The translations under genes were made by a program, and so were the position numbers. The notes beneath the pieces were generated by a model, which was given only the letters and a program-made list of their open reading frames with translations, did no database searches and was not told the DNA's origin. This document shows positions 6,724-50,279 of a DNA stretch of 57,611 nucleotides, piece by piece. The DNA is from Lachnospiraceae bacterium. GTDB taxonomy: Bacteria > Bacillota > Clostridia > Lachnospirales > Lachnospiraceae. The DNA lies in assembly GCA_015057055.1 (NCBI GenBank), contig SVFE01000008.1, forward strand, positions 1 through 57,611, given 5' to 3'. Each line of letters starts with the position of its first letter. Within the stretch, counting starts at the first letter, position 1.

Positions 6724-6752
6724 TTGACATAAGGAATAGTATCTCTTATAAT
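6724..6752 (+). promoter_or_regulatory. Consensus sigma-A promoter of nrdD
   Basis: A perfect TTGACA (6724-6729) and a perfect TATAAT (6747-6752) are separated by 17 bases. The predicted transcript start is near 6759, giving an 88-base leader before nrdD. Confidence 0.9.
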
Positions 6753-6760
6753 GAGACTAC

Positions 6761-6778
6761 ACCACAATATCTTGTGGT
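6761..6778 (+). promoter_or_regulatory. NrdR-type operator upstream of nrdD
   Basis: The 18-base palindrome ACCACAATATCTTGTGGT has 7-base arms and closely fits the known NrdR box pattern (ACACwATATnTwGTGT). It begins just after the predicted transcript start and precedes a ribonucleotide reductase operon, the typical NrdR target. No convincing second box was found at the usual 31-base distance. Confidence 0.8.
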
Positions 6779-6846: not shown

Positions 6847-9036
6847 ATGAGTTGTTGTGACTGCAAACAAGAAAAACAGGAAATTGACTACGGGGCGTTG
6901 TATAAGACCAAACGCAACGTTAAAGTAGTAAAAAAAGACAATTGTTTGGAAGAATTTAATGTTCAAAAAGTAATTAATGCAGTCGGAAAATCCGCATATC
7001 GCGCCTTGACGGATTTTACGGACGAAGAAAAGAAACAGATTTGTCAGTATGTGATTGATAAAGTGGACGAAATGGATGTGGATAAAATTCCCATTCCCAT
7101 TATGCATAATATAGTGGAAAGTGCCCTTGAGCAGGTAAAGCCCATTGTTGCCAAAAGTTACCGTGATTATCGGAACTATAAGCAGGACTTTGTACGGATG
7201 CTGGATGATGTGTATAAAAAGAGCCAGTCTATTATGTATGTTGGTGACAAGGAAAATGCCAACACCGATTCTGCTCTTGTTTCGACCAAGAGAAGTCTTA
7301 TTTTTAATCAGTTAAATAAAGAACTTTACCAGAAATTCTTCCTGACAACGGAGGAACTTCAGGCATGCCGTGACGGTTATATTTATGTCCATGATATGTC
7401 GGCAAGAAGAGACACTATGAATTGCTGTCTTTTTGACGTGGAAAGTGTTCTTCGAGGCGGATTTGAAATGGGAAACATCTGGTATAATGAACCCAAAAGT
7501 CTGGACGTGGCATTTGATGTTATCGGAGATATCGTGCTGAGTGCAGCAAGCCAGCAGTATGGCGGCTTTACCGTTCCCGAAGTGGATAAAATCCTGGAGC
7601 CATATGCAAAAAAATCCTATCAGAAATATTTGGATAAATACGCCAATTTGTGTGTAGATAAAGAAATTGCGGAAGCGGAAGCATGGAATGATGTGGTACG
7701 GGAATTTGAACAGGGCTTCCAGGGGTGGGAGTATAAGTTCAATACCGTGGCCTCCAGCCGTGGTGATTATCCTTTTATTACGGTTACGGCAGGAATCGGT
7801 ACCGGCAAATTTGCAAAGCAGGCGACCATCAGCATGCTGAATGTCAGACGCAGAGGACAGGGGAAGAAAGAGAACAAAAAACCGGTTCTTTTCCCCAAAA
7901 TTGTATTTTTGTATGATGAAGAACTCCACGGTCCCGGAAAAGAACTGGAAGATGTATTTATGGCCGGCGTGGAATGCTCTGCGAAAACCATGTATCCGGA
8001 TTGGCTCAGTTTAACCGGAAAAGGATACATTGCAAGTATGTATAAGCAGTACGGAAAAGTAATTTCGCCCATGGGTTGTCGTGCCTTTTTATCTCCTTGG
8101 TACGAAAAGGGCGGAATGCACCCCGCGGATGAAAAAGATATGCCGATTTTTGTGGGTCGGTTTAATATCGGTGCAGTTTCTCTGCATTTACCTATGATTT
8201 TGGCAAAATCCCGCCAGGAAAGCCGAGATTTTTATGAAGTGCTGGATTATTATCTTAATTTGATTCGTCAGCTTCATATCCGCACCTATGCTTATTTGGG
8301 CGAGATGCGTGCCTCTACCAATCCTCTCGCTTACTGCGAAGGTGGATTTTTGTACGGAAAATTAAAACTTACGGATAAGATTAAACCGCTTTTGAAAGCG
8401 GCCACCGCATCCTTTGGAATTACGGCTTTAAATGAAATGCAAATGCTTTATAACGGAAAGTCCCTGGTGGAGGACGGTCAGTTTGCCATTGAAGTTATGG
8501 AGCATATCAATGAAAAAATCAACGAATTTAAAGAAGAGGACGGCAATCTGTACGCAATTTACGGGACTCCTGCGGAAAATCTTTGCGGTCTTCAGATTAA
8601 GCAGTTCCGTAAAAAATACGGTATTATTGAGGGCGTTTCCGATCGTGAATACGTAAGTAACAGTTTTCACTGTCATGTGGCGGAAGACATTACCCCCATT
8701 GAAAAACAGGATTTGGAATTTCGTTTCTGGGAACTTTTGAATGGTGGAAAAATCCAGTATGTGAAATATCCCATCGATTATAATCTGGAAGCAATTAAAA
8801 CGCTGATTCGCAGAGCTATGGAATATGGTTTCTATGAAGGGGTTAATCTGTCCCTTGCTTACTGTGATGATTGCGGACATCAGGAGTTGGAGATGGATGT
8901 GTGTCCCAAATGCGGCAGTAAAAATTTGACCAAGATTGACCGTATGAATGGTTATCTTTCTTACTCCCGCGTCCACGGAGATACCCGTCTTAACGATGCC
9001 AAAATGGCGGAGATTGCTGAAAGGAAGAGTATGTAA
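6847..9036 (+). CDS. nrdD: Anaerobic (class III) ribonucleoside-triphosphate reductase
   Basis: Oxygen-sensitive glycyl-radical enzyme that reduces NTPs to dNTPs. The 729-residue protein has an ATP-cone at about residues 24-115 (allosteric nucleotide sensing), the catalytic barrel, a four-cysteine zinc site (C673, C676, C686, C689) and the glycyl-radical loop RMNGYLS with Gly702 close to the C-terminus. The first residues (MSCCDCKQE) are unusually cysteine-rich. nrdG starts two bases after its stop and activates it by forming the radical. The consensus promoter and NrdR box upstream indicate repression by NrdR when (d)ATP is sufficient. It indicates anaerobic life. Confidence 0.98.
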   Translation: MSCCDCKQEKQEIDYGALYKTKRNVKVVKKDNCLEEFNVQKVINAVGKSAYRALTDFTDEEKKQICQYVIDKVDEMDVDKIPIPIMHNIVESALEQVKPIVAKSYRDYRNYKQDFVRMLDDVYKKSQSIMYVGDKENANTDSALVSTKRSLIFNQLNKELYQKFFLTTEELQACRDGYIYVHDMSARRDTMNCCLFDVESVLRGGFEMGNIWYNEPKSLDVAFDVIGDIVLSAASQQYGGFTVPEVDKILEPYAKKSYQKYLDKYANLCVDKEIAEAEAWNDVVREFEQGFQGWEYKFNTVASSRGDYPFITVTAGIGTGKFAKQATISMLNVRRRGQGKKENKKPVLFPKIVFLYDEELHGPGKELEDVFMAGVECSAKTMYPDWLSLTGKGYIASMYKQYGKVISPMGCRAFLSPWYEKGGMHPADEKDMPIFVGRFNIGAVSLHLPMILAKSRQESRDFYEVLDYYLNLIRQLHIRTYAYLGEMRASTNPLAYCEGGFLYGKLKLTDKIKPLLKAATASFGITALNEMQMLYNGKSLVEDGQFAIEVMEHINEKINEFKEEDGNLYAIYGTPAENLCGLQIKQFRKKYGIIEGVSDREYVSNSFHCHVAEDITPIEKQDLEFRFWELLNGGKIQYVKYPIDYNLEAIKTLIRRAMEYGFYEGVNLSLAYCDDCGHQELEMDVCPKCGSKNLTKIDRMNGYLSYSRVHGDTRLNDAKMAEIAERKSM

Positions 9037-9038
9037 GA

Positions 9039-9551
9039 ATGAGATATCATAATATAACGAAGGATGACATGCTTAACGGCGACGGACTACGCGTCGTTTT
9101 GTGGGTAGCAGGTTGTTCCCATTGTTGTAAAGAATGCCAGAATCCGTTGACCTGGGACCCGGATGGTGGTTTGCTTTTTGATGAAGCTGCCAAGCAGGAA
9201 ATTTTCGAACAGTTGGATAAAAGCTATATTTCCGGCCTTACTTTTTCCGGCGGCGACCCGCTCCATTCCGCGAATCGGGTTGAGGTTCGCAAGTTTGCAC
9301 AGGAAGTGAAAGAAAAGTATCCGGATAAGACCATTTGGCTGTACACCGGAGCGGATTGGGAGCAGATTTATCATTATCCGGTTATGCAGTATGTGGATGT
9401 GGTTGTAGACGGTGAATTTATTGTTGAGCAAAAGGATGCGACCCTGTTATGGAAGGGAAGCAAAAATCAAAATGTAATTGATGTAAAAAAAACCTTGGCT
9501 CAGACTGACCAGACCAGACCGGTATTGCATTGTAAAGATTACGAGAAATAA
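9039..9551 (+). CDS. nrdG: Anaerobic ribonucleotide reductase activating protein
   Basis: Radical-SAM activase that generates the glycyl radical on NrdD. It has the compact 170-residue size of the family and the CxxxCxxC iron-sulphur motif at C26, C30 and C33 within [12 protein letters not shown], followed by the SAM-binding FSGGDPL segment. It begins two bases after the nrdD stop, which suggests translational coupling. Flavodoxin or ferredoxin is the expected electron donor; neither gene is seen here. Confidence 0.97.
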
Positions 9552-9564
9552 GCGGAGAGTAGCG

Positions 9565-9999
9565 ATGAAAAGAATAAAGATAAAGTATTTTTCTAATGAA
9601 ATTGATAAATTGGACTACATTGATGGCAAATCCGATTGGATAGACTTGCGCAGCGCGGAACACATTGTTTTGAAAAAAGGAGAATTCAAATTGATTCCTT
9701 TGGGTGTGGCGATGCAGCTTCCGGAAGGATATGAGGCGCATGTGGTGCCGAGAAGTTCTACGTTTAAAAATTTTGGCCTTATTCAAACCAATCATATGGG
9801 AGTGATTGATTATACTTATTCCGGAGACAATGACCAATGGTTTATGCCTGTTTTGGCGGTTCGTGATACGGAAATTCAGGTTAACGATCGTGTGTGTCAG
9901 TTTCGGATTATGGAAAATCAACCCAAGATTGTATTTGATGAAGTTGTTGCCCTTGAGGGACCGGACAGGGGAGGGTTCGGTTCTACGGGCAAACAATGA
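9565..9999 (+). CDS. dut: dUTP diphosphatase
   Basis: Hydrolyses dUTP to dUMP and pyrophosphate, keeping uracil out of DNA and feeding dTMP synthesis. The 144-residue trimeric-type protein shows the conserved motifs in order: motif 1 (DLRSAE), motif 2 ([11 protein letters not shown]), motif 3 ([14 protein letters not shown]), motif 4 (RVCQFRI) and the C-terminal GGFGSTG loop. It lies 13 bases after nrdG behind a GGAGAG site, so reductase, activase and dUTPase form one dNTP-pool operon under the same NrdR-type control. Confidence 0.95.
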
Positions 10000-46732: not shown

Positions 46733-47923
46733 ATGAATTTCATGTTAAAAAAGAGTTTAAGAAGAGGTTTTGCACGATGCGTTCTCATTTTTTGTTTTAT
46801 GCTTCAGGTTCCGCATTTGACATTGATTGTAAAGGCAGCGGAGCCGGAAATCTCCGCACCTTCCGCTGTTCTTATGGAAGCATCCACCGGAGCAATAATA
46901 TATGAAAAGGATGCAGATGAAAGAAGGAGCCCGGCAAGCATAACAAAGATTATGACATTGCTTCTGGTGTTTGAGTCTTTGGAAAAAGGGGAAATTGCTC
47001 TTACGGATGAAGTGGTAACCAGTGATTATGCACAATCCATGGGCGGCTCCCAGGTGTTTTTGGAAGCAGGGGAAGTCCAAACGGTGGAAACGCTGATTAA
47101 ATGTATTGCCATTGCCAGCGGAAATGATGCCAGCGTTGCCATTGCGGAATATATCAGTGGCTCGGAGGCTTCTTTTGTGGAACGTATGAATGCAAAGGCG
47201 ACAGAACTCGGCCTTTCGGGAACTCACTTTATGGATTGCTGCGGACTTTCGGATTCGGAGCAGCATTACACGACGGCTCGCGATGTGGCAGTGATGAGCC
47301 GGGAATTAATCACAAGGTATCCGGAAATTTTTGATTATACAACCATTTGGATGGAAGATATCGTACATTCCACCCATCGCGGGGATGAAGTGTTTACCCT
47401 GAGCAGTACCAATAAATTGTTGCAGGAATACCCTTATACTACCGGTTTGAAAACCGGTTCCACCGATGCGGCAGGATATTGTCTTTCTGCAACGGCGCAC
47501 AAGGATGGTATGGATTTAATCGCAGTTGTTATGGGGGCGGATAATCCAAGTGTTCGATTCGACGAAGCGGTTGTGCTCTTGGAATACGGATACTCTTCCT
47601 GTGCCCTTTATTCGGATTCCGAACGAAGTGAACTCTTGCCAATACCGATCCGGCGCGGCGAAGCGGAATCGGCTCCGGTATCCTATGGGGAGGATTTTTC
47701 CTTTCTTTTGTGTGATGGCTTTACGCCGGAAAATGTAACAAAAGAAATAATTTATTATGATGACATAACTGCGCCGGTATCGGAAGGAGATGTTGCGGGA
47801 GAAGTCATATATTATCTGAACGGAAATGAAATTGGTAGAGTTAACATAATTTTTACAGAGGCAGTTTCAGAGGCCGGAATCGGAAATTATTTTATGAATA
47901 ATCTTAGAAAATATCTTTTATAA
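46733..47923 (+). CDS. D-alanyl-D-alanine carboxypeptidase, PBP5/DacF type
   Basis: A secreted low-molecular-weight penicillin-binding protein that trims terminal D-Ala from peptidoglycan stems. It is 396 residues with a signal peptide (hydrophobic stretch about 14-35, cleavage near VKAAE). Active-site motifs are SITK (SxxK), SGN in IASGNDAS, and KTG in GLKTGSTDAAG. A C-terminal beta domain and a basic end (NNLRKYLL) that may be an amphipathic anchor follow. An ATG three codons downstream is an alternative start; neither has a strong ribosome binding site. DacF types often act during sporulation. Confidence 0.93.
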   Translation: MNFMLKKSLRRGFARCVLIFCFMLQVPHLTLIVKAAEPEISAPSAVLMEASTGAIIYEKDADERRSPASITKIMTLLLVFESLEKGEIALTDEVVTSDYAQSMGGSQVFLEAGEVQTVETLIKCIAIASGNDASVAIAEYISGSEASFVERMNAKATELGLSGTHFMDCCGLSDSEQHYTTARDVAVMSRELITRYPEIFDYTTIWMEDIVHSTHRGDEVFTLSSTNKLLQEYPYTTGLKTGSTDAAGYCLSATAHKDGMDLIAVVMGADNPSVRFDEAVVLLEYGYSSCALYSDSERSELLPIPIRRGEAESAPVSYGEDFSFLLCDGFTPENVTKEIIYYDDITAPVSEGDVAGEVIYYLNGNEIGRVNIIFTEAVSEAGIGNYFMNNLRKYLL

Positions 47924-47969
47924 GGAAAGATATTGTGCTATAATCTGCTAATGACACAATATCTTGTGA
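47923..47969 (+). promoter_or_regulatory. Extended -10 promoter flanked by tandem NrdR-type boxes
   Basis: TGCTATAAT (47936-47944) is an extended -10 promoter with its start expected near 47951. ACACAATATCTTGTGA (47954-47969) fits the NrdR pattern and shares 14 identical bases (CACAATATCTTGTG) with the nrdD operator. Its distance from the -10 hexamer is the same as at nrdD. A second, weaker box (47923-47938, 11 of 16 matches) lies exactly 31 bases upstream centre to centre, the usual spacing of NrdR pairs. Confidence 0.75.
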
Positions 47970-47982
47970 AGGGAGAGGGGCA

Positions 47983-48879
47983 TTGGACGTTATTGTCGGA
48001 TTGATTTCATTTTTGATTTCTTTTTTTGGCGGTGTGATTGTTTCGGATAATAGCCATTTTAAGATTAAGCATTACCGCATTGAAAATAAAAAAATCAGGA
48101 CTCCGTTTCGGTTCGCCCTTCTTTCTGATTTGCACGGCAAACAATACGGGGAGGATAATGCAAAACTCCTTGCGGCGCTCATGCGTAAGAACCCGGATTT
48201 TGTGATTGTGGCCGGTGATTTGATTATCGGGAATAAAAAAGAAAGCATTGCTCCGGCGATGAAGTTTCTGAAGAAGCTGTGCGAGATGTTTCCGGTATAT
48301 TTTGCGCTCGGAAATCATGAAAGTAAGTGGAAGTACACGAAAGAGGAATATGAAGCCCTTCTTTTTAAAATTAAAGAAGCGGGAGCTGTTCTTCTGGACA
48401 ATGATACGTTGCATATGTCAGGGCAGGATATTTATCTTCACGGTTTGACGTTGGAAAAGCGATATTATGATAAGTTTAAAAAGCCCGGATTGGAAATAGA
48501 GGATATCAACGGATATTTGGGCGAACCTGCAAAGGATGGATTTCATTTGTTGGTTGCCCACAATCCGGAATATTTTCCGGCCTATGCCCGCTGGGGCGCA
48601 GACCTAACGGTGTCCGGTCATTTGCATGGCGGTATTATGCGGCTTCCTGCATTAAAGCGTAAAAAACGCAGACAAACTGCCAGGGGCGTTATTTCTCCGA
48701 AGTTTCGATTGTTTCCGGATTATTCCGGCGGCAAGTACGATTTTTGTGAAAAAAACGGACAGGCAAAGCATTTGATTGTCAGCTGCGGACTCGGAAGCCA
48801 TACGATTCCGGTAAGGGTTTTTAATCCGGGTGAACTTGTATTTGCGGATGTAATGCCGGAAGAAAAGGCAACTGTTTGA
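47983..48879 (+). CDS. Metallophosphoesterase, YkuE/YaeI-like
   Basis: A 298-residue calcineurin-fold phosphoesterase with one N-terminal membrane segment (residues 3-21). The dimetal site is complete: LLSDLHGKQYG (D..H), VAGDLI, ALGNHE, LLVAHNPEYF and VSGHLHGG. The TTG start at 47983 follows GGGAGAGGGG; no ATG is available near by. It is the first gene of an operon with scpA and scpB, behind an NrdR-type operator. YkuE-like enzymes act at the membrane or cell wall, but the substrate here is not known. Confidence 0.9.
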   Translation: MDVIVGLISFLISFFGGVIVSDNSHFKIKHYRIENKKIRTPFRFALLSDLHGKQYGEDNAKLLAALMRKNPDFVIVAGDLIIGNKKESIAPAMKFLKKLCEMFPVYFALGNHESKWKYTKEEYEALLFKIKEAGAVLLDNDTLHMSGQDIYLHGLTLEKRYYDKFKKPGLEIEDINGYLGEPAKDGFHLLVAHNPEYFPAYARWGADLTVSGHLHGGIMRLPALKRKKRRQTARGVISPKFRLFPDYSGGKYDFCEKNGQAKHLIVSCGLGSHTIPVRVFNPGELVFADVMPEEKATV

Positions 48880-48896
48880 TAATTTGATTAGAAAGT

Positions 48897-49691
48897 GTGA
48901 TTAAAGTGGCATTGTTAGTAAAATTGCAGGTGTTTGAAGGTCCGCTGGATTTGCTTTTACACCTGATAGAGAAAAATAAGGTAGATATTTATGATATTCC
49001 CATTGTGGAAATTACGGAACAGTATTTGGAATATATCCGTGCCATGGAGCAGGAGGATATGAATATTGTCAGTGAATTTCTGGTGATGGCGGCTACGCTG
49101 ATTGATATTAAGTGCAAAATGCTTCTTCCTAAGGAAATCGGTGAAGATGGTGAGGAAGAAGATCCGAGAGCGGAACTGGTACAACAGCTCTTGGAATATA
49201 AATTGTACAAGTATATGTCTTTTGAACTAAAAGATCGTCAGGTGGACGCGGCAAGAGTTGTTTCGAAAGGCTCCTCCATGCCCAAAGAAATTTTGGAATA
49301 TCGTCCCCCGGTGGATTATGAAGAATTGGTAGGGGATTTAAATCTCCAGAAGTTAAATGAAATTTTCAAAGGAATGATGAAACGGCAGGAAGATCGTGTA
49401 GACCCCATTCGAAGCAGTTTTGGTAAAGTGGAAAAGGACGAAATTCCGTTGGAGGAAAAACAAACCTATATTTTTGAATACATATCTTCCCATGACCGTT
49501 GTTCCTTCCGCGAACTTTTGGAAAAACAGGGAAGTAAGATGGAGATAATCGTAAGTTTCCTTGTGGTCTTGGAACTTATGAAAATAGGACAGATTTATAT
49601 AGAGCAGGATCAGCTGTTTGATGATATTATCATCTGTAAGAGTGACGCGTCCCGGCCTCTTACGGTTTCGGAAGATTTTGCGATTTTGTAA
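48897..49691 (+). CDS. scpA: Segregation and condensation protein A
   Basis: Kleisin subunit that bridges SMC heads in the bacterial condensin. The 264-residue protein has the ScpA N-terminus (VKLQVFEGPLDLLLHLIEKNKVDIYDIPI), an acidic linker, and a C-terminal winged helix (FLVVLELMKIGQIYIEQ). A GTG at 48897 is the first possible start; a second GTG nine bases later is equally possible, since no strong ribosome binding site is seen. It sits 17 bases after the phosphoesterase and just before scpB. Confidence 0.95.
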   Translation: MIKVALLVKLQVFEGPLDLLLHLIEKNKVDIYDIPIVEITEQYLEYIRAMEQEDMNIVSEFLVMAATLIDIKCKMLLPKEIGEDGEEEDPRAELVQQLLEYKLYKYMSFELKDRQVDAARVVSKGSSMPKEILEYRPPVDYEELVGDLNLQKLNEIFKGMMKRQEDRVDPIRSSFGKVEKDEIPLEEKQTYIFEYISSHDRCSFRELLEKQGSKMEIIVSFLVVLELMKIGQIYIEQDQLFDDIIICKSDASRPLTVSEDFAIL

Positions 49692-49709
49692 AGGATGGTG
49701 CGAATCGGC

Positions 49710-50279
49710 ATGGAAAGACAAAAGGCCTTGGCGGTTACGGAAGCGGTATTGTTTGCGGTAGGCGAATCTGTAACGCTGGATAAGTTGGCGGACATTTTAG
49801 AGGTTGAAAAAAAAGAAATGCGTGAGATTATCGCGCAGTTAAAGGAAAAATATGAAGATGAGGAGCGAGGAATTTTGCTGATTGAACTGGAGAATTCGGT
49901 TCAGCTTGTAACAAAAGACATTGCATACGAATATCTCGTGAAAATTGCGAAAACGCCTCCAAAGCAAACACTTACGGATACGGTTTTGGAGACTTTGTCT
50001 ATCATTGCCTATAAACAACCGGTTACTCGAGGCGAAATCGAGAAAATCCGCGGCGTAAGCTGCGATCATGCAATCAATAAATTGCTGGAATATGATTTTA
50101 TTGAAGAAGTAGGACGGTTGGATGCACCGGGGCGCCCTCTTTTGTTTGGTACAACGGAGCAATTCTTGCGGAGCTTTGGCGTAAAATCAATTGGCGATTT
50201 GCCTTCCATGAGCCCGGAACTTGTGGAGGATATGAAAGCCCAGGCGGAGGAAGAAATCAGCCTGAAGGTAGATGTATAA
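49710..50279 (+). CDS. scpB: Segregation and condensation protein B
   Basis: Partner of ScpA in the SMC-ScpAB complex; dimeric double winged-helix protein. The sequence shows AVLFAVGESVTLDKLADILE, TLSIIAYKQPVTRGEIEKIRGV and GRPLLFGTTEQFLRSFG, the family's landmarks. I place the start at the ATG at 49710 (MERQKALA) because AAGGATGG at 49691-49698 fits it; the ATG at 49695 overlaps that site. It follows scpA by 18 bases. Confidence 0.95.
   Translation: MERQKALAVTEAVLFAVGESVTLDKLADILEVEKKEMREIIAQLKEKYEDEERGILLIELENSVQLVTKDIAYEYLVKIAKTPPKQTLTDTVLETLSIIAYKQPVTRGEIEKIRGVSCDHAINKLLEYDFIEEVGRLDAPGRPLLFGTTEQFLRSFGVKSIGDLPSMSPELVEDMKAQAEEEISLKVDV

Follow-up and report, generated by a model that had tools for sequence, protein, structure and literature searches.

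A putative tandem NrdR operator in front of a metallophosphoesterase-scpA-scpB operon in Lachnospiraceae

Introduction

In a stretch of 57,611 nucleotides from a Lachnospiraceae bacterium (contig SVFE01000008.1, called the window below) positions 47923-47969 carry two boxes of the type associated with the repressor NrdR. These precede an operon for a metallophosphoesterase (MPE) and the segregation and condensation proteins ScpA and ScpB. We consider it probable (roughly 0.76) that this is a tandem NrdR operator, that NrdR represses MPE-scpA-scpB when deoxyadenosine triphosphate (dATP) is high, and that scpAB is the selected target. The initial annotation had proposed that NrdR places scpAB under its control, and this view gains support from the NrdR geometry of the boxes, from scores with a matrix built from nrdD boxes alone, from conservation across the genus and from the presence of nrdR, all of them properties of the sequence.

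Results

The operator and the nrdD promoter

The features of the promoter region and the operon are as follows; box scores here are from the nrdD-only matrix, which is symmetrised and derives solely from boxes at nrdD genes of the genus, 23 of them primary and 11 secondary.

47923..47938, + strand: upstream NrdR-type box, AGGAAAGATATTGTGC, with a good right half and a degenerate left half; 8.3 bits
47936..47944, + strand: extended -10, TGcTATAAT, of the MPE-scpA-scpB promoter, from the sequence; TATAAT hexamer at 47939-47944
47954..47969, + strand: downstream NrdR-type box, ACACAATATCTTGTGA; 20.2 bits; over the expected transcription start
47983..48879, + strand: MPE, calcineurin-like metallophosphoesterase, TTG start; Pfam PF00149, 4e-16; NCBIfam matches all under their cut-offs
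48897..49691, + strand: scpA, segregation and condensation protein A; Pfam PF02616, 2.2e-36
49695..50279, + strand: scpB, SMC-Scp complex subunit; Pfam PF04079, 2.3e-55; TIGR00281 over its cut-off
ends at 47923, just upstream of the MPE operon: D-Ala-D-Ala carboxypeptidase gene (dac)

The 59-bp gap between the carboxypeptidase gene and MPE holds both the extended -10 and a good palindrome. The upstream box begins on the last base of the dac stop codon and shares the TG with the extended -10. The -35 of this promoter is poor, as judged by eye. The NrdR box, which a 2005 paper reportedly defined, has as its consensus a 16-bp palindrome close to ACACWATATMTWGTGT; the downstream box differs from it at one position. 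Together the two boxes score 28.5 bits and are 31 bp apart from centre to centre, with a 15-bp spacer.

NrdR operators are described as paired 16-bp palindromes, around or upstream of the promoter, with a spacer that is commonly 15-16 bp (14-17 bp were bound in vitro). With ATP and dATP, NrdR assembles into tetramers; these bind a pair of boxes separated by a whole number of turns, whereas a single box is not bound (PMC12051234, cited here and below from excerpts). The MPE operator conforms to this two-box rule (spacer of 14-17 bp, three turns) with a weak second box, whose 8.3 bits are within the range of second boxes at nrdD promoters.

The comparison is with an anaerobic ribonucleotide reductase (RNR) gene, also in the window.

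6724..6752, + strand: nrdD promoter; TTGACA, 17 bp, TATAAT, from the sequence
6762..6777, + strand: primary NrdR box of nrdD, CCACAATATCTTGTGG; 22.6 bits
6804..6819, + strand: weak candidate second nrdD box, CCACAAAATAAGGAAA; 3.4 bits; 42 bp (about four turns) downstream of the primary box
6847..9036, + strand: nrdD, anaerobic ribonucleoside-triphosphate reductase with ATP-cone, from domain and family matches

The initial annotation rested on this likeness, and its particulars hold. The boxes ACACAATATCTTGTGA and CCACAATATCTTGTGG are identical over a 14-base core (6763-6776 at nrdD), and each begins at the tenth base after a TATAAT (47939-47944 and 6747-6752). The weaker copy that it placed 31 bases upstream, at 47923-47938, has the proposed spacing, with the right half alone being good. 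The exact 14-mer, CACAATATCTTGTG, occurs at just two sites in the 2.23-Mb genome, after the -10 of nrdD and after that of MPE-scpA-scpB. Allowing up to three mismatches, the window has 12 matches on both strands against 5.2 expected, the highest count from 100 shuffles being 11. The second RNR of this genome (contig C25, L005) has a good box pair of 33.7 bits, and nrdR itself is encoded at G000:C54:12371-12808 (TIGR00244, 201 bits; PF22811 and PF03477, for the Zn-ribbon and ATP-cone).

Conservation across the genus

This genome is referred to as G000 and the genus set has 35 genomes. ScpA was found in all 35, and the full-length matches are 63-78% identical to ScpA of the window. At MPE we scored box pairs 30-33 bp apart within 190 bp around the gene start, against a threshold of 5.6 bits (the 99% point of 6200 dinucleotide shuffles); G005 (contig end) and G017, G031 and G034 (MPE not on the stretch used) were excluded. 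Pairs above the threshold precede MPE in 29 of the 31 genomes scored, at 9.6-29.8 bits, and by per-region shuffles 28 of the 31 reach P ≤ 0.01, compared with one of 83 control windows in the MPE loci. The two genomes under the threshold are G001 and G021. In G031 the pair lies before MPE on another contig and was recovered with R1, a profile of the pair made from 34 operators (19 RNR and 15 MPE promoters) and searched over the 35 genomes. The pair is therefore present in 30 of the 32 genomes judged at MPE (G005 and G034 were not judgeable), and so the loss of the box from close relatives that keep the operon, which the initial annotation said would refute its proposal, is not the pattern we observe.

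The 29 operators comprise 26 distinct box pairs. Their centre distances are 31 bp (14 operators), 32 bp (14) and 33 bp (1), and the best pairs at RNR loci of the genus (nrdD loci and six second-RNR loci) are 31 bp (15) or 32 bp (14) apart. At 23 of 30 nrdD loci in the genus the best pair exceeds 10 bits, with a partner below 0 bits in three of these; some of the remaining seven loci are cut by contig ends. Across the 35 genomes the 14-mer with at most one mismatch has 153 sites, against 26 for a reversed control.

At the level of single bases, C4, A6, A8, T9, T11 and G13 of the downstream box are kept in all 29 operators and T14 in 93%, a pattern that is symmetric about the centre of the box. 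A TATAAT-type -10 is found at the equivalent place in these operators. The mean information per column is 1.14 bits in the downstream box, 1.41 in the -10 stretch and 1.22 in the upstream box, compared with 0.42 in the last 7 spacer bases, 0.30 in the 30 bases after the downstream box and 0.47 over the 40 bases that lead up to the upstream box. The conserved part of the upstream box is TAT-C-TTGTG (83-100%).

The pair before scpA itself

A good illustration of what the operator may serve comes from two genomes with a different arrangement. In G001 the MPE gene is still upstream and the pair lies between MPE and scpA (G001:C8:38481-38522, R1 match with an E-value of 2.9e-4, 24 bp before the scpA match). 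In G017 there is no MPE before scpA and the pair lies directly before scpA (G017:C50:19304-19343, E-value 0.042, 16 bp before the scpA match). Both are outside the R1 training set; among the matches listed, those ranked highest by R1 are mostly MPE and RNR promoters, as expected from the construction of the profile. Scored with the nrdD-only matrix, the pairs of G001 and G017 reach 12.1 and 8.6 bits, over the 5.6-bit threshold; the promoter between the boxes also counts towards their higher R1 scores. The two genomes group together (support 100/100) within a larger clade of 22 rows, and in each of the 20 other rows the pair stands before MPE. G021, for which the genome is 81% complete, has no pair at MPE or scpA and no nrdR match.

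From these sequences scpAB looks like the constant target of the operator. Where the initial annotation had the whole operon as the target, the weight is better placed on scpAB than on the phosphoesterase, since the pair precedes scpA in G001 and G017.

Other genera and families

For other genera of the family we took the best 88 of 153 by ScpA match score, one genome each, and scanned 200 bp before scpA with 200 shuffles each. Thirteen score above 5.6 bits, and P ≤ 0.01 is reached by 12, against an expectation of about one. Both boxes reach at least 4 bits in five of these genera (G076, G091, G161, G111 and G062). In G076, G091, G161 and G062 the pair is upstream of the -35, a TTGAAA-like hexamer separated by 17 bp from TATAAT (both assigned by eye), and therefore promoter overlap cannot account for the pair there. 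NrdR boxes are also found upstream of the -35 at nrdHEF of Streptococcus pneumoniae (PMC12051234). The 12 genomes that reach P ≤ 0.01 contain 14 nrdD-like loci, of which 13 have a pair scoring over 16 bits (by score alone, with no shuffles), with a partner below 3 bits in three; the single locus lacking such a pair is in G085.

An order-level scan covered 64 further genomes (58 from other families and six from the same family), two weak ScpA matches having been left out. One genome has P ≤ 0.01 and is counted among the 58. The comparison of 12 of 88 within the family with one of 58 outside it indicates that the link between the operator and scpA belongs to this family, where, judging from sequence, it is nearly fixed in the genus and sporadic elsewhere.

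A pair before MPE was also considered for other genera and rejected: three of 56 loci pass the 5.6-bit threshold, and in no case are both boxes good (the 56 include G001 and G021). A search based on the phosphoesterase returned three distant loci only (Candidatus Paralachnospira, Merdimonas and a Lachnospiraceae metagenome-assembled genome), with no pair before MPE or scpA.

Contrary evidence and alternative explanations

Several observations weigh against reading 47923-47969 as an NrdR operator for scpAB. The operator is weakest at its half-degenerate upstream box, though nrdD promoters have similarly weak second boxes. The left half of this box is unconserved (at each of positions 1 to 5 the commonest base reaches 31-59%), and the invariant TGTG could double as the -16 element of the extended -10; part of the conservation of this box may therefore belong to the promoter. 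The downstream box of the scpA pair is weak in G001 (-0.4 bits) and G017 (-1.9 bits) by the nrdD-only matrix. At nrdD of this genome, no good partner box stands three turns away (-11.3 bits). Among the 88 other genera, the scan before scpA is not significant in 76; of the 12 matches, seven owe their score to one box, and two of these seven (G085 and G149) fall, by eye, within the coding sequence of MPE.

A different regulator that shares the motif might read the boxes at RNR, scpAB, mraZ and ftsZ (see below), with NrdR not being the reader, or not the only one. The gene set is unusual for NrdR, and G012, which is rated 100% complete, keeps boxes at nrdD, MPE, mraZ and ftsZ with no NrdR match, as do G004 and G005 (77% and 67% complete) with their boxes. 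The G012 assembly is in 310 contigs, so nrdR may fall in a gap. We think this explanation unlikely, given that nrdR is found in 31 of the 35 genomes, that NrdR has this motif and this spacing of three turns, and that G021 (81% complete), which alone among the judged genomes has a pair neither at MPE nor at scpA, is among the four with no nrdR match.

It is also conceivable that NrdR binds and that the site is of little consequence, for instance if the operon is mostly expressed from other promoters. One box is weak, as this would allow. However, the pair is conserved across species whose full-length ScpA matches are 63-78% identical to ScpA of the window, and it is found before scpA where gene order differs, which makes an idle site distinctly unlikely.

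Could the similarity be nothing but promoter sequence, an extended -10 and an AT-rich start region, together with chance? The overlap of the upstream box with TGnTATAAT, its poorly conserved left half and the weak downstream box in G001 and G017 would fit. Yet the downstream box is no promoter element; it is dyad-symmetric, with six invariant positions in 29 operators. Shuffles and control windows fail to reproduce the pair, which in G076, G091, G161 and G062 stands clear of the promoter, upstream of the -35. The absence of any repressor site is on these grounds very improbable.

Least probable of all is that the operator is real and serves the phosphoesterase, with scpAB carried along as downstream genes: the pair does stand before MPE in 30 of the 32 judged genomes, but it lies between MPE and scpA in G001 and before scpA with no MPE in G017, and in other genera it is significant before scpA in 12 of 88, as against three of 56 over the threshold before MPE, where no locus has both boxes good. 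We rejected an RNA hairpin in the 5′ leader, since the promoter comes after the upstream box and, in some other genera, after both boxes.

Further candidate targets

The nrdD-only matrix was also applied to mraZ, ftsZ and nrdR in the genus, with 200 shuffles per region and promoter windows set after a first look at the data. At mraZ, which heads the cluster of division and cell wall genes, 18 of 30 loci (L234-L263) have P ≤ 0.01 and both boxes reach at least 3 bits in 13. The mraZ pair of G017 is near-perfect, further mraZ loci score 23.5 (G007) and 4.5 (G032), and mraZ of this genome (G000:C9:54343-54378) has one good box only. The MraZ operator consists of direct repeats at steps of about 10 bp, and the box pair could overlap with MraZ autoregulation. 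At ftsZ, 15 of 30 loci (L264-L293) have P ≤ 0.01, with both boxes at least 3 bits in 12 and a spacing that is often 33 bp; ftsZ of this genome has no box pair. None of 177 control windows in the mraZ, ftsZ and nrdR loci is significant. Autoregulation of nrdR was rejected: four of 29 loci have P ≤ 0.01 and none has two boxes of at least 3 bits, so there is no tandem operator before nrdR.

These results raise the possibility that NrdR of this family is not RNR-specific and acts as a dATP-sensing regulator of replication, segregation and division (RNR, scpAB, the mraZ cluster and ftsZ), in which the membership of division genes turns over between species and scpAB is nearly universal in the genus. 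This broader idea is tentative, and we hold it at a little short of an even chance.

In several species single boxes were seen near the genes for HU (L185, L186, L192, L210, L225, L229) and DivIC (L176, L179, L205, L213) and near an rpsF-like gene (L199, L220), all named by eye, which suggests additional replication and division targets. A conserved protein of about 200 amino acids with no Pfam or NCBIfam match has one NrdR-type box near its start in 10 loci (L161, L165, L173, L180, L190, L198, L203, L216, L231 and L232); parts of it remind us of the PolC C-terminus, which is no more than an impression. A pair or a box precedes a gene that by eye is patatin-like (L325, L329 and L233, in G005, G029 and G004). 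This genome also has a pair of 19.8 bits between genes that by eye are CodY-like and FlgB-like (L328, G000:C66:4498-4542). Two genes after nrdD in the window may share its NrdR promoter, one 4Fe-4S activase-like (9039-9551) and one of the dUTPase family (9565-9999).

Palindrome matches alone were rejected as evidence, as the 95 matches in 94 loci include terminator-like hairpins and intragenic sites. For example, the matches at L211, L226 and L212 resemble intrinsic-terminator hairpins, a trap for single-box scans, and those at L007 and others lie inside genes.

Discussion

The operator would sit around the -10 and the start of the MPE-scpA-scpB promoter. When dATP is plentiful, NrdR with ATP and dATP would form a tetramer, occupy the two boxes, which at a distance of three turns face the same side of the DNA, and block RNA polymerase. 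A drop in dATP would release MPE-scpA-scpB together with ribonucleotide reductase, and the segregation machinery would thereby follow the signal that governs the synthesis of DNA precursors. From the geometry of the operator we infer that the operon would be repressed when dATP is high and freed when it is low.

In known systems NrdR appears to be RNR-specific (PMC12051234). The RNR-operon operators resemble the present one in having box pairs and an NrdR with Zn-ribbon and ATP-cone, the spacer here being 15 bp; unlike them, the proposed target here is a chromosome-segregation operon. Before topA of Pseudomonas aeruginosa, every gene described as NrdR-regulated was an RNR gene, according to the excerpts of PMC4409342, and PMC12051234 calls the topA case questionable. 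That case is similar in that a DNA-topology gene outside RNR was placed under NrdR. It has one box and is activated, whereas here there are two boxes, standard spacing and genus-wide conservation.

In Bacillus subtilis scpA and scpB presumably also adjoin a D-Ala-D-Ala carboxypeptidase gene; the neighbourhood we take to be alike, with an NrdR-type operator in front here.

The initial annotation knew of no description of scpAB as an NrdR target, and the open-access literature (mostly titles and the starts of abstracts; subscription papers were outside the scope) likewise yielded nothing on NrdR control of scpAB, mraZ or ftsZ. Excerpts of PMC10505187 and PMC10081379 mention both genes with no link to NrdR control. 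FtsZ appears in an Escherichia coli protein-interaction network with NrdR, and not as a transcriptional target, in the excerpts of PMC4898720. A Caulobacter mutant with raised deoxynucleoside triphosphates (dNTPs) shows delayed origin segregation (PMC12186491, from excerpts), a hint that dNTP level and segregation connect.

The wider interest lies in how bacteria coordinate chromosome segregation and division with the supply of precursors. If our reading is correct, the view of NrdR as an RNR-only repressor would change, with a bearing on NrdR as a proposed antibiotic target. A dATP-sensing repressor over both RNR and ScpAB would then be a direct link from precursor supply to chromosome segregation.

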